DNA of 21,712 bases from a virus, in IMG/VR virus record IMGVR_UViG_3300001450_000387, positions 1-21,712 of that record; one strand, given 5' to 3'. The translations under genes were made by a program, and so were the position numbers. Positions 1 to 20,231 of this stretch are shown piece by piece. A model generated the notes under the pieces. The model was not told the DNA's origin, ran no database searches, and was given only the letters and a program-made list of their open reading frames with translations. The stretch's first letter is position 1; every line of letters starts with the position of its first letter.

Positions 1-3000
1 GGTCTTGAACATTCTTATTCCGCGGTAACTTCTGGTACAACGGCGGGTTCTAACACAGTTTTACCTTTCTATATACCACTTACGGGTGATAGTTACTACT
101 CTGGTACCACGGTTGGTCTTGACGCGTTTAGTGACGCATCAATGTCATCACCATTTTGGACAACTTTACCATCAGAATTAACCGGTATTGATTTTGGTGA
201 CTGGTCTGCTACAGGACAAACAATCACATTAAATGACGGCTCAACAATTTCATCATTTAATCAATCATTTATAGATTGGGCGTCAGCTGCCATGACACTT
301 AGTAGTGATACTTCATTTAACCCACTATTATCTTCAGGTGATACGGCTGGATGTACTTACGGCCAATCTCCATGTATACCAGTAACATTAAATGGTACAA
401 TATACCAATATGGTTGTGTACCACAATACTTTACTGAAACCGCAACTGGTGTTACTACATCTGCTTTATCGGCATTCTCCTATAACGCATCTACGTCAGT
501 ATCAGCAGCAACATTTAGTGTTGGTAATATATTAGGAACAAATTGTTCTGATTTAACTTCTTATGAAAATGACCCATGGTATTATGGATTATTTGAATAT
601 ACTGGAAGTACTGCATGTTGTACAGGTACCACATATAGTGGAGTATCATACCAACTATACGCGAGTGCTGACACACAAAATAGCACTTTAGATTTAACAC
701 AAGCAACTGGTACAACTTTTGATAGTACTGGTGGTACAATTGTTGTTTTATCTGGATATGCTGTATTCGACATTATAAATTACCAAGGAGTAACAGCTAA
801 CACTGAATGGGATGGTATGGATGTACTAACTCTAAGGTCTAGAGGTTTAAGTTCATTAGGTACTGGTGGTCCAATATACGCAATAAGTGCTAATACAAGT
901 GGAAATGTAGAATTCGATTGTAGTGGCAGTTATGAAAGTGTGTTAGAAGACCCATTCGCTACTTTTGGTATTAGTGCAAAAACTGACGATGGTAATATTT
1001 ACACTTTCGAAACTTCTATGTCTAATACAGCTCAAAACTACGCACCTAGAGTGTTTGGTAGAAGTCCTTTTGATAAAAAACAAGTTGACGTACCTGTTTT
1101 TGTTGAGGAGGCGTACCCAACACTATTGAATATAGGTTACAAGTTAGGTAAAGTTAGAGGATTACAATGTTGTCTACAATACTTACCAGCTGCTAGAGAA
1201 ACAATAAATACAAACACCATTGCTTGGTACATGAATGAGTGGCAAACACCGGAGACACCATATATAGTCTCGGAATTACAAGGTAGTGATGTATTTAGAT
1301 TATTTAAATTTGTTTCCATATCTGATGGAACAAACGCAAATAGAGAATATAAGATATCAATAGTAAACCTTTCATTTGAAAGAGCTGAATTTGATGTTAT
1401 TGTTAGAGATTTTTATGATACCGACGCAAACCCAGTAGTGTTAGAAAAATTCACTAGATGTAGTCTAGACCCAACTAAAGTATCTTTTGTGGGTAGAAAA
1501 ATAGGTACTTCTACAGGTGAATTTGAATTAAGGTCTAAGTATACTATGTTATACCCTACAGAAGCTTTATTGGATGGAACTTACGTAGGTTCATTACCAG
1601 CTGGTTTTGAGGGGTATAGATTCAGAAGGTACGGAACTTGTGGTGTAAACCCAAAAATTATATATAAAACAAAATATTTTAACCCAGGTGAAACTATTTT
1701 TGACCCACCTTACGGTTCTGGTACGGGTAATAACGTTATAAGAAGTGGTGGTGATAAAGTTAGTAAAGTTTACTTAGGTGTTTCAAATAGTAGTGGAGCT
1801 GGGTACGACGCAGACTTCTTTGATTTTAAAGGATATATCCCACCAACAAATATTTGTACTGGAGTTGCCGGTTCACAGTGGGAGGTACTTACACAAGGAT
1901 TCCATATGGATTCTGGAGCTACAGTAGTGGTTGGTGGTGTTGGAACTTACCTAACTTGGTCGTCTACAACATTAAATGGTTTATCTATATTTGATTGTGG
2001 TGTTGGACAATTTAACCACGAACCTACTTTAAGTACTGAACCATACAAATCATTAAGGTCACGTAAATTTACGATAGCACCACACGGAGGGTTTGATGGT
2101 TGGGACATCTATAGAAAAACAAGGTCAAATACAGATGACTATAGAATGGGTCTAACAGGTTTCTTAAACGGGTCGTGTACAAGTTCAGAATTCCCAACAG
2201 CAACTGGTGATGGGTCATTTAAAAAATTAAATACAACTGAAGCTAATACCGATTATTTCGCATACTTAAGAGGGATATCTAAATTTGATAACCCAGAATC
2301 TGTAGATATAAATGTATTTGCGACACCTGGTATTGATTATGTTGATAATTTAGGTTTAGTTAATGAAGCTATTGACATGGTTGAAACAGATAGAGCTGAT
2401 TCATTATACATAACTACAACACCAGATTACAACATGTTTGTAACAACAGCTTCAGATTCTGCAAATCAAATAACACCTGATGAAGCGGTAGACAATATAG
2501 AAGATTCTTTAATAGACTCAAACTATACAGCAACATACTACCCTTGGGTTCAAATAAGAGACGCAGCAAATAACAAACAACTATACATACCACCAACAGC
2601 AGAGGTAATGAGAAATATAGCTTTAACAGACAACACATCTTTCCCTTGGTTTGCATCGGCAGGTTACACTAGAGGTTTAGTAAATGCGGTGAAAGCAAGA
2701 AAGAAACTTACTTTGGATGAAAGAGATACTCTATATGTGGGTAGACTTAACCCAATCGCTACGTTTAGTGATACGGGACCAATTATTTGGGGTAATAAAA
2801 CTTTACAAGTTAGAGAATCTGCTTTAGATAGAATTAATGTAAGAAGATTGTTATTACAAACTAGAAAATTAATTTCAGCTGTCGCGGTTAGATTAATATT
2901 CGAACAGAATGACGATGTGGTTAGACAACAATTCTTAGACTTAGTAAACCCAATTCTAGATTCTATTAGAAGAGATAGAGGTTTAACAGACTTTAGAGTG

Positions 3001-3138
3001 GTTCTTTCTAATGACCCAGAAGAAATAGATAGAAATGAAATGAATGGTAAAATCTATATTAAGCCTACAAGAGCTTTAGAATACATATTTGTTGAATTCC
3101 TAATAACTCCTACAGGGGCTTCTTTTGAAGATATATAA
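1..3138 (+). CDS. Contractile tail sheath protein, gp18-like (5' partial)
   Basis: This frame is open from base 1, so the ATG at 142 is an internal methionine and the true start lies upstream of the window. At least 1045 residues are visible, against about 659 in T4 gp18. The last ~110 residues are typical of phage sheath C-terminal domains: a helix rich in R and L (SALDRINVRRLLLQTRKL, from about nt 2818), then FEQND, and a final beta segment with IYIKPTRALEYI. The protein would polymerise around the tail tube and contract to drive injection. The upstream ~700 visible residues are rich in Ser, Thr and Gly with several Cys, including two adjacent CC pairs, and probably form surface-exposed sheath domains inserted into the conserved core. 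The C-terminal assignment is firm; the inserted domains are not recognised. Confidence 0.92.
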   Translation, partial: GLEHSYSAVTSGTTAGSNTVLPFYIPLTGDSYYSGTTVGLDAFSDASMSSPFWTTLPSELTGIDFGDWSATGQTITLNDGSTISSFNQSFIDWASAAMTLSSDTSFNPLLSSGDTAGCTYGQSPCIPVTLNGTIYQYGCVPQYFTETATGVTTSALSAFSYNASTSVSAATFSVGNILGTNCSDLTSYENDPWYYGLFEYTGSTACCTGTTYSGVSYQLYASADTQNSTLDLTQATGTTFDSTGGTIVVLSGYAVFDIINYQGVTANTEWDGMDVLTLRSRGLSSLGTGGPIYAISANTSGNVEFDCSGSYESVLEDPFATFGISAKTDDGNIYTFETSMSNTAQNYAPRVFGRSPFDKKQVDVPVFVEEAYPTLLNIGYKLGKVRGLQCCLQYLPAARETINTNTIAWYMNEWQTPETPYIVSELQGSDVFRLFKFVSISDGTNANREYKISIVNLSFERAEFDVIVRDFYDTDANPVVLEKFTRCSLDPTKVSFVGRKIGTSTGEFELRSKYTMLYPTEALLDGTYVGSLPAGFEGYRFRRYGTCGVNPKIIYKTKYFNPGETIFDPPYGSGTGNNVIRSGGDKVSKVYLGVSNSSGAGYDADFFDFKGYIPPTNICTGVAGSQWEVLTQGFHMDSGATVVVGGVGTYLTWSSTTLNGLSIFDCGVGQFNHEPTLSTEPYKSLRSRKFTIAPHGGFDGWDIYRKTRSNTDDYRMGLTGFLNGSCTSSEFPTATGDGSFKKLNTTEANTDYFAYLRGISKFDNPESVDINVFATPGIDYVDNLGLVNEAIDMVETDRADSLYITTTPDYNMFVTTASDSANQITPDEAVDNIEDSLIDSNYTATYYPWVQIRDAANNKQLYIPPTAEVMRNIALTDNTSFPWFASAGYTRGLVNAVKARKKLTLDERDTLYVGRLNPIATFSDTGPIIWGNKTLQVRESALDRINVRRLLLQTRKLISAVAVRLIFEQNDDVVRQQFLDLVNPILDSIRRDRGLTDFRVVLSNDPEEIDRNEMNGKIYIKPTRALEYIFVEFLITPTGASFEDI

Positions 3139-3146
3139 TATTTATA
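3139..3146 (+). promoter_or_regulatory. TATTTATA motif, candidate phage promoter element
   Basis: Exact TATTTATA immediately after the sheath stop codon and 13 nt before the ATG at 3160, followed by an A-rich leader. It is one of a family of copies found only in intergenic gaps of this window. The promoter role is inferred from position and recurrence. Confidence 0.4.
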
Positions 3147-3159
3147 ATAAAAAAGTGAT

Positions 3160-3759
3160 ATGAAATTTACAAAAAAATTATTAGCCGAGACATTAAATAA
3201 GGTTTCTAACGGTGGTAAAACTTTTACTAGTGGTAAAAAACAAAACGTTATTATTAGTGAGGAACAACTAGAAAGAGTCTTAAGTGTTGTAGAAGAACAA
3301 TGGCAAGAAATAAATTTAGAAGAAGACGCTAAACCTGACTTTTTAGACCTTGATGGTGACGGTGATAAAAAAGAGTCTATGAAAAAAGCATCTAAAGATA
3401 AAAAAGAAATGGACGAAGGGGCAAAACCTGATTTTTTAGACCTTGATGGTGATGGTGATAAAAAAGAATCCATGAAAAAAGCATCTAAAGAGGCTAAAAC
3501 TAAAGAAGTTAAGGAAGATTCTGGTCATGATGAAGCTATGAATTATGGTAAGGATGAAGGCCATGACGATAAAGAACTTTATGATTTAAAACATGATGGT
3601 GGTAGTGAAGGCCATATAGATGATTTAGAAGATGATATGCACTATGACCATATACACGATTCAAAAAACATAGAAGAATCACAAGAAGAAAAAGAAAGAC
3701 TAATCCAAGAAGATATTAAAAAAATGAAAGCAATTATTAGTCCAATAAAAAAGATTTAA
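3160..3759 (+). CDS. Acidic repeat protein with DxDGDxD motifs and a His/Asp-rich tail
   Basis: Function not recognised. The 199-residue product is highly charged, with no signal peptide and no membrane segment. Residues 29-47 (NVIISEEQLERVLSVVEEQ) match a segment at the start of the HAD-like protein at 5112. Residues 57-79 and 88-110 are near-identical repeats containing KPDFLDLDGDGDKKE. The DxDGDxD core resembles an EF-hand or dockerin calcium loop but lacks the usual acidic residue at loop position 12 (Met here). Residues ~120-170 are rich in His and Asp (GHDE, GHDD, GHIDD, MHYDHIHD), which could bind metal. I recall similar DLDGDGD-K-rich repeats from proteins of marine T4-like phages. 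The next gene starts 1 nt after its stop, so the two are probably co-translated. A virion, head-core or internal protein is plausible but unproven. Confidence 0.75.
   Translation: MKFTKKLLAETLNKVSNGGKTFTSGKKQNVIISEEQLERVLSVVEEQWQEINLEEDAKPDFLDLDGDGDKKESMKKASKDKKEMDEGAKPDFLDLDGDGDKKESMKKASKEAKTKEVKEDSGHDEAMNYGKDEGHDDKELYDLKHDGGSEGHIDDLEDDMHYDHIHDSKNIEESQEEKERLIQEDIKKMKAIISPIKKI
3328..3489 (+). repeat. Two 69-bp imperfect direct repeats, 93-bp period
   Basis: Copies at 3328-3396 and 3421-3489 differ at about 5 of 69 positions. All differences are synonymous third-position changes, so both copies encode the same 23 residues around DLDGDGDKKE. This points to an in-frame duplication kept by selection at the protein level. 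Confidence 0.85.
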
Positions 3760-4052: not shown

Positions 4053-4481
4053 TTAGTAAAAACCCATAAACCCAACGTAATTACCTTCTTCTAAATTACT
4101 TTCATTTACAAAAATAATAATACCTGATTCTTGTACATACAAAAATCCTTCAGTTCCACTATAGTGGTCAATAAAGTTATACGTACAACCATATCCCTTA
4201 AGAGACTTAATTTTAACTATAGATAATTCCCATTTTATATAGTCTTCATTTTTTTTAGAACTACGCTCAACTAAAATACTGTAATTTAAAGTATCTATAT
4301 AGACTTTATTTTTAGTATTTGAAAAACTTTTAAATTTTACATTTTTGTTATATTCGGACATAAAATAACCATCATAGTTAGAAATAGATACAAGTAGATT
4401 CATGGTTGTATCTTTTAAGTTTATAGTTTGTGAATAAGCTAGTGTTGGTAATAGTATTAGTAGTAGTATTAATTTTTTCAT
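4053..4481 (-). CDS. Small Sec-secreted hypothetical protein (SPase I signal)
   Basis: Function not recognised. I chose the ATG whose product begins MKKLILLLILLPTLAYSQ, a textbook signal peptide with a cleavage site after AYS, giving a mature protein of about 124 residues. A longer in-frame start at 4532 would bury this signal and overlap the upstream gene by 50 bp, so it is less likely. The start lies 1 nt beyond the stop of the lipoprotein gene, which implies translational coupling. The mature part is mixed alpha/beta with one Cys (GYGCTYN). Products ending in AYSQ followed by small beta-rich domains are common in Bacteroidota hosts and unusual between phage tail genes. It probably acts in the periplasm or outside the cell. 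Confidence 0.75.
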   Translation of the reverse strand: MKKLILLLILLPTLAYSQTINLKDTTMNLLVSISNYDGYFMSEYNKNVKFKSFSNTKNKVYIDTLNYSILVERSSKKNEDYIKWELSIVKIKSLKGYGCTYNFIDHYSGTEGFLYVQESGIIIFVNESNLEEGNYVGFMGFY

Positions 4482-4482
4482 T

Positions 4483-5055
4483 TTAGTATTTTTTAAATTT
4501 AAGTTTAGAGTGGTATTTGTAGTTATACCCATTTATATTTTTGTAAGTTTCTTGTATATGAATAACAATAATTTTATTTTCCAGGTCTAATATATTGTAT
4601 AGTACAGGCCTTCCTGACCCACCTAGTAGTAAATAAGAACCAACCAAAGGTTCTGTTACTGTTAAATTGTTATTAGTTACTGAAAGTCCGTATGGTAATA
4701 AAGTGTCATTATTTAACACAAAATCACCCATACCAGGAACATTACTAGGTAAGTAAAAACACCAACTAGTATAATTCTTTACTAAGTTTTCAAAGTCATA
4801 TATACTACCCCCATAACGTAAACTACTAGTGTCACCATTATTAAAATGGGGTAACTTAATTAATTCATTAGTTTCTAAATTTTCCATATACATTTCCCCA
4901 TCCTCAAGTAACCAACAACCGTCTATAAGGTTTTCCCCAGTGTAACTTCCTGGGTTTTGTGTTGTTGGGTATGTTTCAGTACAAGGAATATAGAGAGGTT
5001 CTTTATCACAAGAAACTAAAGATATAATTAATAAAAGGCTTATAATGTTTTTCAT
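4483..5055 (-). CDS. Lipoprotein, Bacteroidota type (SPase II signal)
   Basis: The 190-residue product begins with a short basic start, a hydrophobic run and a lipobox LVSC with the modified Cys at residue 16, followed by DKEP. It should be lipidated and anchored in the periplasm or outer membrane. The rest is rich in aromatic residues and beta strands, with spaced segments such as GCWLLEDGEMYM, LSVTNNNLTVTEP and YKYHSKLKF. This loosely recalls lipocalin-like Bacteroidota lipoproteins, but I would not assign the fold on this alone. It is the first gene of a two-gene minus-strand operon inside the phage tail cluster. A role in altering the infected cell surface, such as superinfection exclusion, is inferred from context only. 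Confidence 0.8.
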   Translation of the reverse strand: MKNIISLLLIISLVSCDKEPLYIPCTETYPTTQNPGSYTGENLIDGCWLLEDGEMYMENLETNELIKLPHFNNGDTSSLRYGGSIYDFENLVKNYTSWCFYLPSNVPGMGDFVLNNDTLLPYGLSVTNNNLTVTEPLVGSYLLLGGSGRPVLYNILDLENKIIVIHIQETYKNINGYNYKYHSKLKFKKY

Positions 5056-5059
5056 AATA

Positions 5060-5090
5060 CAAAGATAAATAAAATTAGTGAATAAACAAA
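5060..5090 (-). promoter_or_regulatory. Bacteroidota-type promoter for the lipoprotein operon
   Basis: On the minus strand, TTTG (5090-5087), a 19-nt spacer and TATCTTTG (5067-5060) match the Bacteroidota primary-sigma consensus TTTG-N19-TAnnTTTG exactly. Only 4 nt (TATT) separate the -7 element from the ATG at 5055, so the transcript would have almost no leader. No other gap in the window shows this combination. Confidence 0.7.
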
Positions 5091-5099
5091 ATTAATTTG

Positions 5100-5107
5100 T
5101 ATTTATA
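5100..5107 (+). promoter_or_regulatory. TATTTATA motif upstream of the HAD-like gene
   Basis: Exact copy ending 4 nt before the ATG at 5112. It sits in the 56-bp divergent gap next to the minus-strand host-type promoter. If it is a -10-like element, the HAD transcript would also be nearly leaderless. Confidence 0.38.
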
Positions 5108-5111
5108 TTAT

Positions 5112-5975
5112 ATGGGAAAAAATATTATATTAACGGAAAAACAGTTATTGGTGATTAATAAAGTTTTAACTGAACAAAAAACAGACCCAACTAACTTAAG
5201 GGCATACTCTTTTGATTGGGATGATAACATAATTAATATGCCCACCACAATAAAAATGTTAAAAAATAATGGAGATAATTGGGAAAAGTTTGATGTTGGT
5301 ACAGATGAATTTGCTACTATACGAGACAATAACCAGTACAAGTTAGATGATGGTGCTTTTAATAACTTTATAAATGACGACAGTTTTATTGTTGATTTAG
5401 AAAAAGCTTTAAAGGATAGTTCTTACGCTCCCTCATTTGATAAGTTTAAAGAAGCTTTAATTTATGGTAATCCAATATCAATAATTACAGCTAGAGGACA
5501 CAAACCCGAAACACTAAGAAAAGGTATGGATTTAGTAATTTCTTATACTTTCACTGAAAATGAATTATCTGACATGGTAGATAACATACAACAACAGATA
5601 CCAGAATTAGATGGGACCAATCCAGAACTAACACTAAAGACCTATCTAGACTCACAAGAGTACCACCCAGTGACCTCAAATGAATTTACTGATAAGTTTG
5701 GTCTTGAGAGGGGTTCAGCGGCTAATCCGGAAGAAAATAAAAAAATAGCATTAAGAGATTATGTAACTAAAATAGTAGACAAGACTTCTGAAATGGTTAG
5801 TACAAAATATAATAAACTTTCTGTTGGATTTAGTGATGATGATTTAGGTAATATAAACGCTATAATACCCTTTATAAAAGAGGTATTACAAATAGAATTT
5901 CCTGATGTTGAGTTTGTAGTATACGACACTTCAGAAGGAGGAATGAACAAAATAATACTAAAACAAGTAAATTAG
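5112..5975 (+). CDS. HAD-superfamily phosphatase-like protein
   Basis: I chose the ATG at 5112 (product MGKNIILTEK) over a TTG at 5097. In the 287-residue product, HAD motif I is seen as FDWDDN with D35 and D37 as nucleophile and acid/base. Motif II is IITARG with T126, and the acidic motif IV is GFSDDD with D242-D244. Lys210 or Lys220 could serve as motif III. This is the arrangement of a Mg-dependent phosphotransferase; the substrate is not evident. Residues 4-22 (NIILTEKQLLVINKVLTEQ) match a segment of the acidic protein at 3160 and end in LTE. That resembles the LxE/IxE cleavage sites of T4-type prohead proteases, so the enzyme may be packaged in the head. It lies between the minus-strand operon and the tail tube gene. 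Confidence 0.75.
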   Translation: MGKNIILTEKQLLVINKVLTEQKTDPTNLRAYSFDWDDNIINMPTTIKMLKNNGDNWEKFDVGTDEFATIRDNNQYKLDDGAFNNFINDDSFIVDLEKALKDSSYAPSFDKFKEALIYGNPISIITARGHKPETLRKGMDLVISYTFTENELSDMVDNIQQQIPELDGTNPELTLKTYLDSQEYHPVTSNEFTDKFGLERGSAANPEENKKIALRDYVTKIVDKTSEMVSTKYNKLSVGFSDDDLGNINAIIPFIKEVLQIEFPDVEFVVYDTSEGGMNKIILKQVN

Positions 5976-5997: not shown

Positions 5998-6005
5998 TAT
6001 TTATA
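5998..6005 (+). promoter_or_regulatory. TATTTATA motif upstream of the tail tube gene
   Basis: Exact copy in the 66-bp gap before the tube gene, 36 nt upstream of the ATG at 6042. It is followed by an A-rich leader with no Shine-Dalgarno sequence. Confidence 0.42.
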
Positions 6006-6041: not shown

Positions 6042-6530
6042 ATGGCTGACTTATTAATGAAAATGCCGATACCTTACGAACCAAAGAAAAAGAATAGATT
6101 TATTCTAAGGTTCGATTCTTCTTTAGGAATCAATGAATGGTATGTAGAGAGCACTTCAAGACCACAAGTAACAATTAACTCTGTGGAGGTACCTTTTCTT
6201 AACACATCTACTTATGTAGCTGGTAGATTTGTGTGGAATACAATAAATGTAACATTTAGAGACCCAATTGGACCATCTGCTTCACAAGCATTAATGGAGT
6301 GGGTTAGATTACATGCAGAGTCGGTAACAGGAAGAATGGGTTATGCTGCTGGATACAAGAAAAATATTGACTTGGAGATGTTAGACCCAACAGGTGTTGT
6401 TGTGGAAAAATGGATAATGCAAGGATGTTTCTTAACTGATGTAAACTTCGATAGTTTAGGGTATAGTGATGATGGTTTAGCTACAATATCTGCTACTTTA
6501 AGACCAGACAGGTGTATATTAGTTTACTAA
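6042..6530 (+). CDS. Tail tube protein, gp19-like
   Basis: The 162-residue product matches the 163 residues of T4 gp19. Its layout fits the family: an early beta segment NRFILRFDSS, a central strand FVWNTINVTFRD, the helix ALMEWVRLHAES, the YAAGYKKNIDLEMLD strand and a closing region beginning GCFLTDVNF and ending ISATLRPDRCIL. It forms the hexameric rings of the inner tube through which DNA passes. The partner sheath gene is normally adjacent, but here about 2.9 kb and five genes intervene. It has its own candidate promoter and is followed directly by a strong terminator, as expected for a highly expressed structural gene. Confidence 0.9.
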   Translation: MADLLMKMPIPYEPKKKNRFILRFDSSLGINEWYVESTSRPQVTINSVEVPFLNTSTYVAGRFVWNTINVTFRDPIGPSASQALMEWVRLHAESVTGRMGYAAGYKKNIDLEMLDPTGVVVEKWIMQGCFLTDVNFDSLGYSDDGLATISATLRPDRCILVY

Positions 6531-6691: not shown

Positions 6692-7453
6692 ATGCTAGAA
6701 AATAATTTAAGGCCAGATACAGAAACAATTTTACCGTATGACGTAGTAACACTACCTTCAGAGGGTATATTCTATAAAAATAAGAAAAAATCTGTAAAAG
6801 TAACCTACCTTAATGCCTCAGACGAAAATCTATTAGCTTCACAATCACTTCAGGGTAGTGGAGATTTAGTAAATCAACTAATACTTAAAAAAGTTTTAGA
6901 TAAGGATATCCAAATTAGTGATATGCCAGAATGTGATAAACAAGCTATTTTGGTTTTTTTACGTAACACAGCTTTTGGGTCTGATTACTCAGTTAAATTA
7001 AAAGACCCAAAAACAGGGATTGAATTTGAGACCACCTTGGACTTATCTATTTTAAAAACAAAAGATGTTACAATAGAATTGGATGATAAAAACGAATTTG
7101 AGTTCTACTTAGAAAAATCTAAAAAGAAATCAAAACTAAAGTTTTTAACACCTATTGACCAAGAAGACCTAAGAAAAATTGACGAGTCTCATAAAAATGA
7201 CCCAGTAAATCCATTTATGACAAAACAATTAGAAAAAATGTTAGTTGAAGTAGATGGTACAAGAGACCGAATGACAATTGCACAGTTTATACAAACCATG
7301 CCTATTAAAGACGCTCAAGACGTTAGGAAAATGGTCAAAAATAATACCCCAGCATTGGATTTAAATGTTACGACAACCACACCATCAGGAGAAGAAATGA
7401 AAGTATCAGTTTCATTGGGTGTTGAGTTTTTTCGTCCTTTCTACGGGCTATAG
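6692..7453 (+). CDS. Tail assembly chaperone / T4 gp26-like baseplate protein, first frame
   Basis: The 253-residue product has the pattern I associate with the T4_baseplate (gp26-like) family: LPSEGIFY at residues 21-28, then a V-x-YLNASDE segment, LVNQLILKKVL, DKQAILVFLRNTAFGSDY and a C-terminal beta region ending GVEFFRPFYGL. Such proteins act as baseplate hub subunits or tail assembly chaperones. Its place between tail tube and tape measure, followed by a short overlapping frame, is the classic site of the G/GT-type chaperone pair, which favours the chaperone reading. The shift to the other frame would have to occur before the TAG at 7451. Confidence 0.72.
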   Translation: MLENNLRPDTETILPYDVVTLPSEGIFYKNKKKSVKVTYLNASDENLLASQSLQGSGDLVNQLILKKVLDKDIQISDMPECDKQAILVFLRNTAFGSDYSVKLKDPKTGIEFETTLDLSILKTKDVTIELDDKNEFEFYLEKSKKKSKLKFLTPIDQEDLRKIDESHKNDPVNPFMTKQLEKMLVEVDGTRDRMTIAQFIQTMPIKDAQDVRKMVKNNTPALDLNVTTTTPSGEEMKVSVSLGVEFFRPFYGL

Positions 7454-13600: not shown

Positions 13601-13918
13601 ATGAGTTACTATAATAGATATAATGAGTTTATTGTTAATGGTGATTATATAATGGTACCAGGCATAAAACTAGCACCAAAATCTAGTGATAGACAAGTGG
13701 TATATAAAACTGGTAAAAGTAGATTAGATAAATTTTCACAACAATACTACGGTTCACCATACTATGGTTGGTTAATTATGCAGTCTAACCCAACATTTGG
13801 TGGACAAGAATGGAATATACCAGATGGTACAATAATAACAATACCATTCCCATTAATGCAATCACTAGAGGACTATAAATCAAAATTAGACCAACACTTC
13901 CTCTACTATGGCAGATAA
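13601..13918 (+). CDS. Baseplate wedge protein, gp53-like with LysM-like fold
   Basis: The 105-residue product carries the LysM-like signature seen in T4 gp53 and tail X-type proteins. It has RLDKFSQQYYGSPYYGWLIM (about residues 41-60), a following Asn, then EWNIPDGTIITIPFP (70-84), which fits G-T-x-I-x-IP. In T4, gp53 joins neighbouring wedges during baseplate assembly. T4 gp53 is 196 residues, so this is a short form covering mainly the LysM-like part. It overlaps the start of the hub gene by 11 nt, suggesting coupled translation. Confidence 0.78.
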   Translation: MSYYNRYNEFIVNGDYIMVPGIKLAPKSSDRQVVYKTGKSRLDKFSQQYYGSPYYGWLIMQSNPTFGGQEWNIPDGTIITIPFPLMQSLEDYKSKLDQHFLYYGR

Positions 13919-16900
13919 ATTAAATTCCGGAGATGTTTTTACAAACCCAGTAGGTAACAATTTAGTTGTTGTTGACCCTAATAAAGTTATGGGCTCCAAT
14001 GGTAAAATCGTAGATAGACTAGTCAATCACGAAGATTTAGTAATGTACGCCAACCTAACAGCAAAAATTTATCCAAGAAGTAAAATTATTGCTGGTGCAG
14101 CTGCGGGTGATGAAATAAAAGTAGATTTATTTGATGGTGAATTAAATTTTTTAAAACCAGGTGGTAAAAAGAATTTAGATTCAGATTGGACAGAAGGATT
14201 TACAGACCCAGATTTTGGTAAAAGTAAAAAAAGTGATAAAAACGGTGTTAAACCATCTAGAGTTTTTGATAATGATAAAGATTTTGGTGGGTTTGGTATC
14301 ACATCTATAAGTGTTAAGGTTAATTCTTCCTATATACCACAAGTAAGTATAAACTTTACGGACGTTAGGGGTAAAACATTATTTGAACAAGCAAAAACTA
14401 ACTCACCATACACAGCATTTTTTCACCTACCGTACCCAACATTTTTTCTAACACTTAAAGGGTATTATGGTAAAGCGGTTCAGTATCAGTTAACTCTGGA
14501 AAAATTTGTATCAAGATTCGACCCTAGTAGTGGTGACTATTTAATAACTTGTGATTTTAAAGGTAACCACATTGCCCTTTTACGTGATATAAACATGCAT
14601 CAATGTGTTACAGCACCTTATATGTACCCCACAAGAGTAGATGGTGACGGAAACGTAACATCAACAAAAGGAAGACAGATTATGAGAAATGTCTATAAAA
14701 TATATAAAGACTCTAAATTAATACCTAATGATTTTCCAGAATACACCATAGTAGAATTAATAGAAAAAGTAAAAACATTAGATAAAGATTTAGGAAAATT
14801 ATATGGGCAAAAAAACTTAACAACAACTACGGATAAATTAAGGTATGAAGAAACCCTAGACAAATTAAAAGAAAAATTTAAAAAGGATTGGATGAGTGAG
14901 TATCTAGCCACTGACCTTGGAGAGGATGTAGAAATATTAATAAAAGAAGTTAATGGTGAAGGTAATAGTGTAACCAAAAAAGTTTGGACAACAGCCTACC
15001 CATTAAAAGCTACAGGAAATATAAATGAAGAGGTAAAGGCGGGTAATGGTAATCGAACAGAAATGTTACAACAAGCCGAAATAGAAGCACTTGAAGCTTT
15101 AGCACAAGTAGTTTTACCAGAATTAAATAAATTAAGTGAAAACAATACATTTGGTGTTGATGGTGTAGAAGATGGCAAATATAAAGTAAATGACTATTTT
15201 GGTGAACTAGTGAGTAATGGATTTGGTTTTAATGTAAGACAACTCTATAAAGGAATGAAGGTAAATGGGCCCGACGGAATTAAAGTTGAGAATACCGAAA
15301 AACTTAACCAAGACGATACGGGTAAAAATAGAGAACTAGAACCTTGGTTTATTACAGGACTAGCAAGTCAAACTTTTTATGGTAGATGGAACCTACAAAA
15401 GAAAAGTTTTGATACCAAAGCTAAAGAAATGTCACAAGAAATTTCTGCTGAATTAAATGAACGACTACAGAATTATTTAGGGTTTGTACCTACAATAAGA
15501 AATGTATTCGCAATTATAGTTGCTGGTGCGGATACGTTTTTAAGGTTATTAGATGATGTCCACACAAATGCGATGAGACAAAGTACCAACCCAAAAAGGT
15601 TAGCGGTTGCTAATCAGTCAAATGATACAGCTAAAAATAATACAAAAGATAATGAAATTTGTTACCCTTGGCCTCAATACTATGTTGTTGAAGAGGAGGG
15701 AGCTTGTGGTATAACTTCTGCGGTATTAAAATATCCAGGAGCTACTGACGTAATAGACGTAAATGAATCTAATAACAAAAAATTTTGGCCAGAAGTAGAT
15801 TTTGTAGAAGAATATGTTAAAAGTACCGTATATAGAATAAGTGATTATAAATTTGCAACTATTAACACAGGAATCTCAAAACAATTTACACCAATAAATG
15901 TTAGAGACTGGCCAGCAAAAACAGCACCCTACACAACTAAAGATAATAGTGAGTTTTTATTTGAAATATTAGATAGAGCACAATCAGTCATTACTTTTGG
16001 TAGCGTAATGACAAGATACCAAAGCTCCCAATCACTACCACTAATAGGTGAATCACTAACGGAATTAGCGGGATATGAAGCACAAAACATAAATAAACAA
16101 ATAGAAGAAAACCCAAAACTAAAAGAATTTATAGCATCCATAACAAGTTTTGAAGATATAGAAAGAAAATTAAAATCAACATCACCATACAACTTTAGTA
16201 TCTATGAAAATTTTGGTATAATAACACCCTTTAACCAAAAAACATTTACAATTGAAACAAGACCAAATAACCCATTTGAAATTGTTAGTAAAAATTTCTC
16301 ATTAAATTCTAGTGTTTTAGACGTTTCTAAAACTACCGGATTTTTTGATACGGTACCTTTCCTACCCCCTGTTCAAAATTCTGGGTGGGTAACTAAAAAT
16401 TTAGCTGGTGGTGAATTAATTTCTGGTCCCGGTGATTTTTATAGGTTAAAAAATTTATATTATGACATAAATGATGATGGTGTTTTAAAAGATATTGATA
16501 ATATACTGTATTTAACGGGCTCTGACGTATGTAGAGCAAGGTTTGATAGGGGTAGTTGGTTTAATACTGAAATAAGCGGACCAATATCCGACAGCTCAAT
16601 TGTAGACGAATATTACAACACGAAAGGTTTTCTTACAGATACAGGCTTTTTTCTAAATTATACGGAAGGAAGTATTAAAAATTCTTTAACACCAATTAAT
16701 GTTGTAAACCCACTTCCCATAGCAAATCAAGAAATAGATTTAACAACTAAAAAGTTAACGTCTATGTTAAACACACCTTATTTTATTAATTCATTATTGG
16801 ATGGTGTAAATAAAGACCAAGTTGGTTCTACAAATCCATACACATTAAGTTCTTATTTATTCTTAAATTCTTTACCATTAATAAATTTTAGAGAAAAGGT

Positions 16901-19900
16901 ATTTAATGATTTTGGTGACATGTTGAGTTATGTAGCTATCTCATTTAATCAAATGCCAGCTTTACATAAAGTACCACTAACACTACTTCTTAAAATAGGG
17001 TCCATATGGTGGAGATATAAACAAAATGTAAAAACGGGAGTAGACCCATTAACAAGTGTTTGGGATAATCTAGGTAATAGCCCATCCACGGTATATGACC
17101 CAGTAAATAACTCAATTAACACAAACTTCACTTTTACGGGTAGTACTGATGGTACAACATATAACTATACCTCAGAAGATATCCCCAATAACTCAGTTAG
17201 TGTTGGGGTGTATCCAACATTAATAGAAGCTATACAATATATAACAACTGACACAATAACTAGTTATACACCACCAGTAGTTGGTTCGTCTTTAAATTTA
17301 ATGTTTAATCCACTACCTCTTCCATTAGTAGACCTAAATTTAACTATAGAAAATAATACTAATTTAGCTTACACTAGTACCGACGGAACCAAAATAAAAT
17401 ACTACAATGTATATCTAGACTCAAAAAATATAAATGATGATAGTTTAGGGATTAAATTCGGTAATAAAATTAAACCAAAAAGATACTTTATTTTATACCC
17501 TTGCACGGGCGGTATAAAATGGACTGAAGCACCGGCCTATGCTGACGACGGAAGTATGAGCCCAGCAATTCTACCAAACAACATAAACTCATTACACAAT
17601 GGAGCCGCCAGAATGTTATGGTACTCATCACCCAAGGGATACTTTGAACACAAAAGTTCTTACAAACCCTCACCAAATCAATATATTAAATTAGTCGACC
17701 CATCGATAGATAAACAGACAATACCTTGGTCTCTTATAGAAGGTGGTAATTATTCCACAATAGATGATTTAAGAGGTGTGTTTAACACAGAACAACTTGA
17801 CGAGTTTGAAAAAATGTTTTTAAAATTTTCTGATAGTAAAACCACTTCATCTGCGGTTACATCTACACTAAAAAGTATTATAAAAGATATTAGTTATGTG
17901 ACCGACAGGGATATAGATGAGGCCACATTAGAATTTGATGTGGTAACAGGGTCAGATTTACTAGCGGCACAAGCACTTAAATTCCCATATATAATAGAAA
18001 ATTTAATAAACACAAATGTAGATTACTCACATAATTCTACAAATAATTTGGATATGATTGTAAATGGGTCTACAGTACTACAAAACCTAATGGGTCTTTA
18101 TAGTGAGAGTGCTGACTATAATTTTGGAACCTACGCAGAGTCATCAATACTAATCCCAACAACACCCGCAGGTACATTTCCACCATTAACACAAGAACAT
18201 ATAGATATGCAAATTTATGTGGGTGAACACTATGTTAGTAATGACCCATTAGACATACTTACTACAACAGATACTAGTAATCCATTCTATAACTTTTTTG
18301 TTACGGCAAGACCTGATGGTAACGGAATAACATTCAATAGTAATAATATACAAGCTTTTGCTCCAATAATTAGAATGTATGGTACCTATTGTTCAAAAAC
18401 CCCAGCATTAAACACTTTTCCCGCTCATGAGTATTTTAAATTATTAGTTACAGAATTAGAAACATTAAATAATAAAGAAGAAGATTATGTTAACGCTATT
18501 TTAAAAGAAACAAACAAAAAAATAAAGAAAGAAAAAAATCTAAGTAAATTAAAAGAAGCTGACCCTAGAGCTAATGTGGAGGGTGATGACTTAAAATTAG
18601 AATTATATAATGGATTCAAAACTATGAATGATAGGTGGGTTTCTGGAATTAACCTAACAGCAACTGGTGGAACATTGTTTGAAAGATTTTTATTTTTAGA
18701 TAGGGCAAATAGAGATATTGGAAGTGAAGCGATAGTTAATATATGGGATGTTCTAAAACTAGACTCCCCATTTGACGACGCTAGTTCTAAAACTCTAACT
18801 CAAAGTATAGCAAGTTACCTAAGTATTATTTTAGCTAATAATTATTTTAATTTTATACCACTACCATCCTACATTAACTTCTTTAATGTGGAGGGGGACA
18901 ATTCACAAAGACAAGGTAATGCAATGTTTGGTACATTTACTACAGTAGATTATTTAGACTCTAGGCCAGCATTCCTATGTCAATACGTTGGAAAAACATC
19001 AAGTCAATTAGACGTAAAAACTTCTAACAATGGATATAGTACCGACACATTTAACGTTAATAACACAGCAAATAACCCACTATTGGCAGAAGAATGTGGT
19101 GATAGAAAACTATCCAACAAAGTAATGGGGTTTAATGTGGACTTTGGTATCGCAAATCAAAATATATTTGAATCGGTAACATTAGACCAATCACAATACC
19201 AAAACACTGCTGAAAGTTATAAAATTTTACAAGAAATGGCAAATTCTGGTGGTGGGGGAGCTACCACAATGGCCTCAACATCATTATATAATGTATACGC
19301 TAGTAGGTCTTATACAGCAAAAATTACCTGTATGGGTAACGTAACAATACAACCAACACAATATTTTCAGTTAAGATATTTACCTATGTTTAATGGGCCA
19401 TACTTAATTATTAATGTTGAACATGATATAAGACCTAATACTATTGAAACTAGTTTTGAGGGCATCAGAGTACCAATACCAAAACTACCAAAAATAGATG
19501 ATTTAGTACAACGTGTTAATGAAAGTTTATATAAAGAAGCGGAGACAAATCTAAAAGAAACGAGAAAACCAAACTACTACTATGATGATTTAACAGCTAC
19601 AAAACAACAAATGAAACTACTACCAAACCAAGATGGGTATATAGATAGTGGTAGTACATATACTTCATTAAATGACCCAGTAACTTTTGGTTACGCTATG
19701 GACACTCAACAAGTAGAGTATTCAGAAGATAACCCACTAGAACCACACTTAGGTTTAGATTACATTCCTCTAACTGAATATACTGAATTAGCGTCTAGTG
19801 AAGAAGGATTATCGATATACCCAGTTATAGATGGTATTGTTACGGCAGTTCTTGATGGATGTACGGTAGGTAATACTAGTGATAATTGTGGGTTAGGTAA

Positions 19901-20231
19901 TTATATTGAAATAACAAAAACACTACAGGAAAATCCAACAGAAAATGAAACAGCTTACTACAAAGTTACGTACTATTACTTACGAGAAGGTATTTTAGTT
20001 GCGGCCAATGAAGGGGCGGAATCAATAGTAGACAGAAACAGTGTTCCAATTCAACCTTCTACACTAGGAGGCACAATATCCATGGGTAGAAAAATAGCTA
20101 AATTAGGTAATACTGGAAAATCTAAAGGACAACACCTACATTTAGAAATACGTAGAGGTGTACAAATAGAAGGCAAAATAGTAGAACACATACTAAACCC
20201 TAGAAATATAATACCACCTTTTTCTTTTTAG
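13908..20231 (+). CDS. Giant baseplate hub protein with C-terminal M23 peptidase domain
   Basis: The product is 2107 residues. Residues ~130-235 form a beta-rich block (SISVKVNSSYIPQVSINFTD, then FFLTLKGYYGKAVQYQLTLE) that looks like a hub (gp27/gpD-type) ring domain. Residues ~1797-1863 (SYTAKITCMGNVTIQP, FNGPYLIINVEHDI, TSFEG) are typical of the closing hub barrel. The last ~170 residues are an M23-type metallopeptidase: HLGLD (H1947, D1951) and HLH (H2076, H2078) supply the zinc ligands, within GNTGKSKGQHLHLEIR. The usual YxHL histidine appears as YYYL at 2022-2025. The middle 1300 residues are unassigned. It probably forms the central hub and cuts peptidoglycan during entry, doing the combined job of T4 gp27 and gp5 with a different enzyme. 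There is no second hub gene in the window. Confidence 0.8.
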   Translation: MADKLNSGDVFTNPVGNNLVVVDPNKVMGSNGKIVDRLVNHEDLVMYANLTAKIYPRSKIIAGAAAGDEIKVDLFDGELNFLKPGGKKNLDSDWTEGFTDPDFGKSKKSDKNGVKPSRVFDNDKDFGGFGITSISVKVNSSYIPQVSINFTDVRGKTLFEQAKTNSPYTAFFHLPYPTFFLTLKGYYGKAVQYQLTLEKFVSRFDPSSGDYLITCDFKGNHIALLRDINMHQCVTAPYMYPTRVDGDGNVTSTKGRQIMRNVYKIYKDSKLIPNDFPEYTIVELIEKVKTLDKDLGKLYGQKNLTTTTDKLRYEETLDKLKEKFKKDWMSEYLATDLGEDVEILIKEVNGEGNSVTKKVWTTAYPLKATGNINEEVKAGNGNRTEMLQQAEIEALEALAQVVLPELNKLSENNTFGVDGVEDGKYKVNDYFGELVSNGFGFNVRQLYKGMKVNGPDGIKVENTEKLNQDDTGKNRELEPWFITGLASQTFYGRWNLQKKSFDTKAKEMSQEISAELNERLQNYLGFVPTIRNVFAIIVAGADTFLRLLDDVHTNAMRQSTNPKRLAVANQSNDTAKNNTKDNEICYPWPQYYVVEEEGACGITSAVLKYPGATDVIDVNESNNKKFWPEVDFVEEYVKSTVYRISDYKFATINTGISKQFTPINVRDWPAKTAPYTTKDNSEFLFEILDRAQSVITFGSVMTRYQSSQSLPLIGESLTELAGYEAQNINKQIEENPKLKEFIASITSFEDIERKLKSTSPYNFSIYENFGIITPFNQKTFTIETRPNNPFEIVSKNFSLNSSVLDVSKTTGFFDTVPFLPPVQNSGWVTKNLAGGELISGPGDFYRLKNLYYDINDDGVLKDIDNILYLTGSDVCRARFDRGSWFNTEISGPISDSSIVDEYYNTKGFLTDTGFFLNYTEGSIKNSLTPINVVNPLPIANQEIDLTTKKLTSMLNTPYFINSLLDGVNKDQVGSTNPYTLSSYLFLNSLPLINFREKVFNDFGDMLSYVAISFNQMPALHKVPLTLLLKIGSIWWRYKQNVKTGVDPLTSVWDNLGNSPSTVYDPVNNSINTNFTFTGSTDGTTYNYTSEDIPNNSVSVGVYPTLIEAIQYITTDTITSYTPPVVGSSLNLMFNPLPLPLVDLNLTIENNTNLAYTSTDGTKIKYYNVYLDSKNINDDSLGIKFGNKIKPKRYFILYPCTGGIKWTEAPAYADDGSMSPAILPNNINSLHNGAARMLWYSSPKGYFEHKSSYKPSPNQYIKLVDPSIDKQTIPWSLIEGGNYSTIDDLRGVFNTEQLDEFEKMFLKFSDSKTTSSAVTSTLKSIIKDISYVTDRDIDEATLEFDVVTGSDLLAAQALKFPYIIENLINTNVDYSHNSTNNLDMIVNGSTVLQNLMGLYSESADYNFGTYAESSILIPTTPAGTFPPLTQEHIDMQIYVGEHYVSNDPLDILTTTDTSNPFYNFFVTARPDGNGITFNSNNIQAFAPIIRMYGTYCSKTPALNTFPAHEYFKLLVTELETLNNKEEDYVNAILKETNKKIKKEKNLSKLKEADPRANVEGDDLKLELYNGFKTMNDRWVSGINLTATGGTLFERFLFLDRANRDIGSEAIVNIWDVLKLDSPFDDASSKTLTQSIASYLSIILANNYFNFIPLPSYINFFNVEGDNSQRQGNAMFGTFTTVDYLDSRPAFLCQYVGKTSSQLDVKTSNNGYSTDTFNVNNTANNPLLAEECGDRKLSNKVMGFNVDFGIANQNIFESVTLDQSQYQNTAESYKILQEMANSGGGGATTMASTSLYNVYASRSYTAKITCMGNVTIQPTQYFQLRYLPMFNGPYLIINVEHDIRPNTIETSFEGIRVPIPKLPKIDDLVQRVNESLYKEAETNLKETRKPNYYYDDLTATKQQMKLLPNQDGYIDSGSTYTSLNDPVTFGYAMDTQQVEYSEDNPLEPHLGLDYIPLTEYTELASSEEGLSIYPVIDGIVTAVLDGCTVGNTSDNCGLGNYIEITKTLQENPTENETAYYKVTYYYLREGILVAANEGAESIVDRNSVPIQPSTLGGTISMGRKIAKLGNTGKSKGQHLHLEIRRGVQIEGKIVEHILNPRNIIPPFSF

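Follow-up and report, generated by a model that had tools for sequence, protein, structure and literature searches.

Promoters read by the primary sigma factor of Bacteroidota, sigma-ABfr, consist of a -33 element TTTG and a -7 element TAHHTTTG (PMC6847099). Transcription of F. johnsoniae genes starts 4-5 nt past the -7 element, and leaders longer than 10 nt are present in 87% of the mRNAs of this bacterium that have a probable promoter (PMC6847099). The late promoter of T4 is TATAAATA, which takes the form NATAAATA in cyanophages (PMC2984593). Far-T4-like viruses of marine Bacteroidetes with about 33% GC are known (TARA_ERS490346_N000037; PMC7198788). How T4-like phages of Bacteroidota organize their promoters is hardly described, and a literature search found no paper on the subject. 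Here we analyze a candidate sigma-ABfr-type promoter located among the tail genes of a virus that probably belongs to this group.

Results

The window analyzed here is an entire IMG/VR record of 21,712 bases (32.7% GC). Its T4-like modules all lie on the plus strand and include a sheath-like ORF at 1-3138 (called from gene order and size, with tail-sheath PHROG matches of its orthologue class in a related record), a tail tube gene at 6042-6530 (PHROG E 7e-32) and, from Pfam/PHROG searches, a T4_baseplate gene at 6692-7453, a baseplate wedge gene at 13601-13918 and a gp32-like gene from 21336 onward. The sheath gene is followed at 3160-3759 by a gene for an acidic protein with two copies of the AKPDFLDLDGDGDKKESMKKA repeat, which is calcium-binding-like (DxDxDGD). 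This product matched phrog_24078, whose function is unknown. Between the sheath and tail tube genes a plus-strand gene at 5112-5975 encodes a HAD-like product with an FDWDDN motif that had no accepted Pfam or PHROG match; its remote relatives were found in 630-735 kb uncultured phages. The window has just two credible minus-strand genes, here called A (4483-5055) and B (4053-4481), which are separated by one base, with the end of B four bases away from the stop codon of a facing plus-strand gene.

The nearest annotated relatives of the tail tube included those of Rhodothermus phage RM378 (41% identity), Flavobacterium phages and also a Microcystis phage. The window resembles the far-T4-like phages (RM378; TARA_ERS490346_N000037) in its T4-like modules and in sharing a GC content of about 33% with the marine virus, and differs from them in that no relative of A, or of a third cassette protein C encoded by related contigs, was found in annotated phage genomes. 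The tail tube relatives, the known far-T4-like viruses and the promoter class described below suggest Bacteroidota as the host phylum, and the window comes from a T4-like virus, probably of marine Bacteroidota.

The string TTTGTTTATTCACTAATTTTATTTATCTTTG was matched exactly at 5090->5060 on the minus strand of the window. It contains TTTG at 5090-5087 as the -33 element, a 19-base spacer and TATCTTTG at 5067-5060 as the -7 element, and this octamer ends 4 bases ahead of the ATG of gene A. Both elements and their spacing are those of sigma-ABfr promoters, as TATCTTTG fits TAHHTTTG and TTTG-N19 supplies the TTG/TTTG about 19 nt upstream, and the two free -7 positions likewise contain no G. When one mismatch was allowed, TTTG-N19-TATCTTTG had a single match in the window compared to 0.37 expected from dinucleotide shuffles, and the exact promoter string is expected 0.01 times per window by chance. 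Leaving the two unspecified -7 bases free (TTTG-N19-TANNTTTG) resulted in two exact matches compared to 0.28 expected, the second being at 18013-18043 on the minus strand within the coding sequence 13908-20231. A version with looser spacing was unremarkable (3 seen, 2.2 expected per window) and a generic sigma-70 scan demonstrated no excess (16 found, 20.8 expected). By itself the motif is just moderately improbable in 33% GC DNA; the case for a promoter comes from its placement 4 nt before an ORF start and from its conservation in relatives. The initial annotation had read this site as a Bacteroidota-type promoter that fits the consensus, that is the sole match noticed in the intergenic gaps and that serves an operon. 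All of this agrees with our results, from the exact string, both elements, their spacing and conservation to the location of the other exact match inside a coding sequence and the two minus-strand genes one base apart. No convincing terminator was detected around the cassette.

Relatives of the locus were collected using the neighboring plus-strand gene at 5112-5975 as the anchor, which produced 78 loci whose counts are not independent as they share ancestry and were all fetched through this one gene. Forty-four of the inspected relatives, with identities reaching as low as about 56%, had a minus-strand TATMTTTG promoter in the corresponding position, and in these 44 contigs TATMTTTGTA was kept as the spacer and coding bases drifted. 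Among 37 distinct sequences the columns of the -7 octamer were 0.97-1.00 identical and TTTATCTTTGTA hardly varied at all, compared with identities of 0.4-0.9 for most columns of the spacer and coding sequence. The sites of the window and its relatives have an extra conserved TAGTA/TATTA after the octamer, which sets them apart from sigma-ABfr promoters. The -33 element is TTGG, not TTTG, in most relatives and therefore only TTKG and the -7 octamer are conserved.

The genes behind the promoter varied among relatives, with the arrangements A-B, A-B-C, A-C, B-C or C alone. The ATG was exactly 4 nt past the octamer in 27 of 34 distinct sequences and 15-90 nt off in the other seven (L121-L124, L127, L129 and L130), where TATCTTTGTAGTAT or a close form was retained. 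As the promoter was kept whether the first gene was A, B or C and also when the ATG was 15-90 nt on, it is not a by-product of the start codon. The promoter-plus-start string TATCTTTGTAGTATGAAAAA was found in 69 IMG/VR stretches; an A gene follows it in 25 of them, a B gene in two and varied genes in the rest. Twelve remoter relatives (<50% identity) had neither the promoter nor A, B or C, and in most of these a sheath gene or a small plus-strand gene adjoins the homologue of the gene at 5112. The remote relative L135 has two unrelated minus-strand ORFs and no host-type promoter within about 900 nt upstream of position 6001, hinting that the slot accepts other cassettes.

Conservation of the octamer could have another origin, either as the DNA site of a regulator or through chance combined with shared ancestry, with the cassette transcribed from elsewhere. 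Loose matches are frequent in AT-rich DNA (the 2.2 expected per window) and the relatives are linked by descent. We nevertheless regard this explanation as highly improbable, as just the octamer columns are invariant among drifting neighbors, the motif persists when the first gene changes and unrelated early genes of these genomes have the same motif upstream.

We then compared promoter classes, using motif and proximity alone to assign them, in the window and in four long related records of 96, 211, 156 and 128 kb. The octamer TATTTATA was among the commonest 8-mers upstream of genes in all five records. It was found in the sense orientation within 60 nt of an ATG 20, 35, 22 and 14 times in the long records and 5 times in the window, and its reverse complement 10, 10, 6 and 4 times and once, for sums of 91 sense and 30 reverse complement copies in the four long records. 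The distances from TATTTATA to the ATG clustered at 4 and about 12-18 nt. All six copies in the window are on the plus strand (3139, 5100, 5998, 7634, 20256 and 21297) and for five of the six an ATG ORF begins no more than 60 nt downstream. Among the genes with TATTTATA in the 211-kb record, those that could be identified by PHROG were portal, terminase, head protease and head-tail adaptor, and this distribution suggests that TATTTATA is probably a phage late promoter motif. Like the T4 late promoter it is an AT-only octamer near the structural genes of a T4-like phage. It differs in that TATTTATA, not its reverse complement TATAAATA, is the form mostly oriented with the genes (91 to 30), and in that the sigma factor found in the relatives is a Sigma70_r2/r4 protein. 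The same orientation statistics led us to reject minus-strand TATAAATA as a possible second cassette promoter.

Host-type TATMTTTG sites in gaps were scarce, with 1-10 per record. They precede genes for family-B DNA polymerase, the Sigma70_r2/r4 protein, a SprT-like protein, secreted proteins and a lipoprotein, as well as this cassette. The host-type promoter was found at orthologous positions for sigma in 3/3 cases, for DNA polymerase in 3/4 and for the SprT-like gene in 2/2, the DNA polymerase gene of L172 being without a clean -7 element. The cassette therefore has the promoter type of the replication and regulator genes, unlike that of the structural genes, and sharing it with the polymerase and sigma orthologues places the cassette in this presumed early class despite its late-gene location. 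The phage sigma factor behind a host-type promoter is a 265-aa protein with Sigma70 regions 2 and 4 (L191:16254-17048, with homologues in L185 and L168) and is possibly a late sigma. Secreted proteins behind host-type promoters are encoded at L166:13823-14329 and, as two genes in tandem, at L176:2082-2606 and 2696-3220, with a CAP domain in L176; these are probably further early envelope genes.

With the host-type promoter on the minus strand and an element of the TATTTATA class on the plus strand, the 56-bp gap at 5056-5111 carries back-to-back promoters. The TATTTATA copy at 5100-5107 is a probable phage-type late element that faces the other way, 4 nt before the ATG of the HAD-like gene that it would serve. 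It is separated by 9 bp from the -33 element of the host-type promoter and by 32 bp from its -7 element. The spacing between the two facing elements was unchanged in 27 of 34 relatives, and four more had one altered base. The 4-5 nt spacing of F. johnsoniae predicts a minus-strand 5' end within the start codon, at 5055 or 5054, and the cassette mRNA probably starts at its AUG and is leaderless. This predicted start is positioned downstream of the -7 element as in sigma-ABfr promoters (PMC6847099), from which the site differs in its location on a phage, in having the start codon at the start site and in being overlapped by a divergent phage-type promoter. As 87% of the F. johnsoniae messages have leaders of more than 10 nt, a leaderless start would be atypical for that bacterium.

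Gene A encodes a predicted lipoprotein of 190 aa with the lipobox LVSC, and gene B a predicted secreted protein of 142 aa with a signal peptide ending in LAYSQ. The surface export signal of Bacteroidota lipoproteins is C-X-K-(D/E)2 (PMC5080379); A of the window reads C-D-K-E-P at this position, with the K and one acid only. The AlphaFold models of A (pLDDT 72) and B (pLDDT 87.5) were both beta-rich. Neither protein had a match in Pfam or PHROG, and Foldseek against the PDB returned nothing at E<=0.001 for either model. The best Foldseek matches were lipocalin, FABP, NHBA and TbpB-like barrels at TM ~0.3, a weak fold resemblance that we treat as a lead only. Protein C of the relatives, which is missing from the window and from its nearest relatives, which like the window have A and B, is 78-83 aa long with two hydrophobic segments and is predicted to be a two-TM protein. 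Its Pfam matches were weak and below cut-off (DUF420, E 0.001, 19.6 bits vs 30.5) and PHROG gave nothing better than E 0.024. A search of 84,980 bacterial and archaeal genomes with one degenerate pattern found no close relative of A, and a single 15-residue match to C in a Micrarchaeota MAG was judged spurious.

Discussion

Taken from its sequence, the site is likely a working sigma-ABfr-type promoter of a lytic, far-T4-like phage, from which unmodified host RNA polymerase transcribes the two-gene envelope cassette early in the infection of a host from the Bacteroidota. With a start signal of the host's own type, the cassette proteins would probably be made at the start of infection. The initial annotation proposed transcription by host RNA polymerase from the moment of entry, independently of the late program. 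The first proposal is supported as far as the early-type class of the promoter, with transcription from entry staying a prediction, and the second at the sequence level, in that the class differs from that of the surrounding TATTTATA structural genes and matches that of the DNA polymerase and phage sigma genes. A further proposal, expression in a silent prophage, would make the cassette a lysogenic-conversion gene of a temperate phage. A lysogen would be able to use a host-type promoter, but the T4-like gene content, relatives that are all virus contigs, the lack of an integrase in the window and the lack of a relative of A in the genomes searched with one pattern all argue against this, and we give it almost no credence.

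The cassette could also be late or constitutive, with the TATCTTTG site used at all times or read late by phage-modified polymerase, so that its timing is not separate from that of the tail genes. The cassette does sit within the late block and the phage could keep host-type initiation late in infection. This explanation appears unlikely, as the promoter class is unlike that of the surrounding structural genes and like that of the replication and regulator genes, and the divergent geometry with the TATTTATA promoter is held at fixed spacing in most relatives.

With host-type promoters presumed early and TATTTATA late, early transcription of the cassette suggests a mechanism, which we offer tentatively. 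The 56 bp may form a compact early/late switch in which unmodified host RNA polymerase reads the sigma-ABfr-type site first and makes a leaderless mRNA encoding an envelope exclusion system not described before (A, B and in relatives C), as the neighboring tail genes wait for the phage's own late signal. The phage sigma factor, itself expressed from a host-type promoter, might then read the facing TATTTATA; this step is a guess. From the size of their footprints two polymerases are unlikely to occupy both elements together, and late initiation should therefore close the early promoter by occlusion, turning the cassette off and the tail genes on.

Early envelope proteins of lytic phages, where well understood, often serve superinfection exclusion. 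T4 Imm, for example, is an 83-aa protein that stops the entry of superinfecting DNA. Gene C of the relatives shares the size of Imm and its two hydrophobic segments, and differs in having no sequence similarity to Imm and in being absent from the window; C as an Imm homologue was rejected (hmmsearch E 1, hhalign probability 0.3%). The T5 lipoprotein Llp inactivates the phage receptor FhuA (PMC9586334). Like Llp, A is an envelope-bound phage lipoprotein and probably early. It differs in being beta-rich and 190 aa long, in having no relative that could be detected and in sharing its operon with one or two more envelope genes.

As A, B and C had no accepted match in the libraries scanned, the argument for exclusion comes from their anatomy: all three are predicted envelope proteins. 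We suggest that the cassette alters the infected cell's envelope and most likely serves superinfection exclusion, to which we assign a chance a little short of even. A comparable, nearly even chance goes to other envelope changes that help the phage, such as capturing nutrients, keeping the envelope together up to lysis, blocking host contact or defense, or timing lysis via C. The weak lipocalin, FABP and TbpB-like resemblance of A and B fits ligand binding, but no family match in Pfam or PHROG ties A, B or C to any such function. C is of holin size, although holin-type genes are expected to be late and not behind an early-type promoter.

The comparison defines a host-type and a TATTTATA class of promoters that can be put to the test in a widespread group of marine phages. 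It also points to phage envelope proteins, widely shared and so far undescribed, that are encoded within the tail genes behind promoters of the host-type class. Should these proteins exclude superinfecting phage, they would add a new exclusion system to the few known from the probable host phylum.
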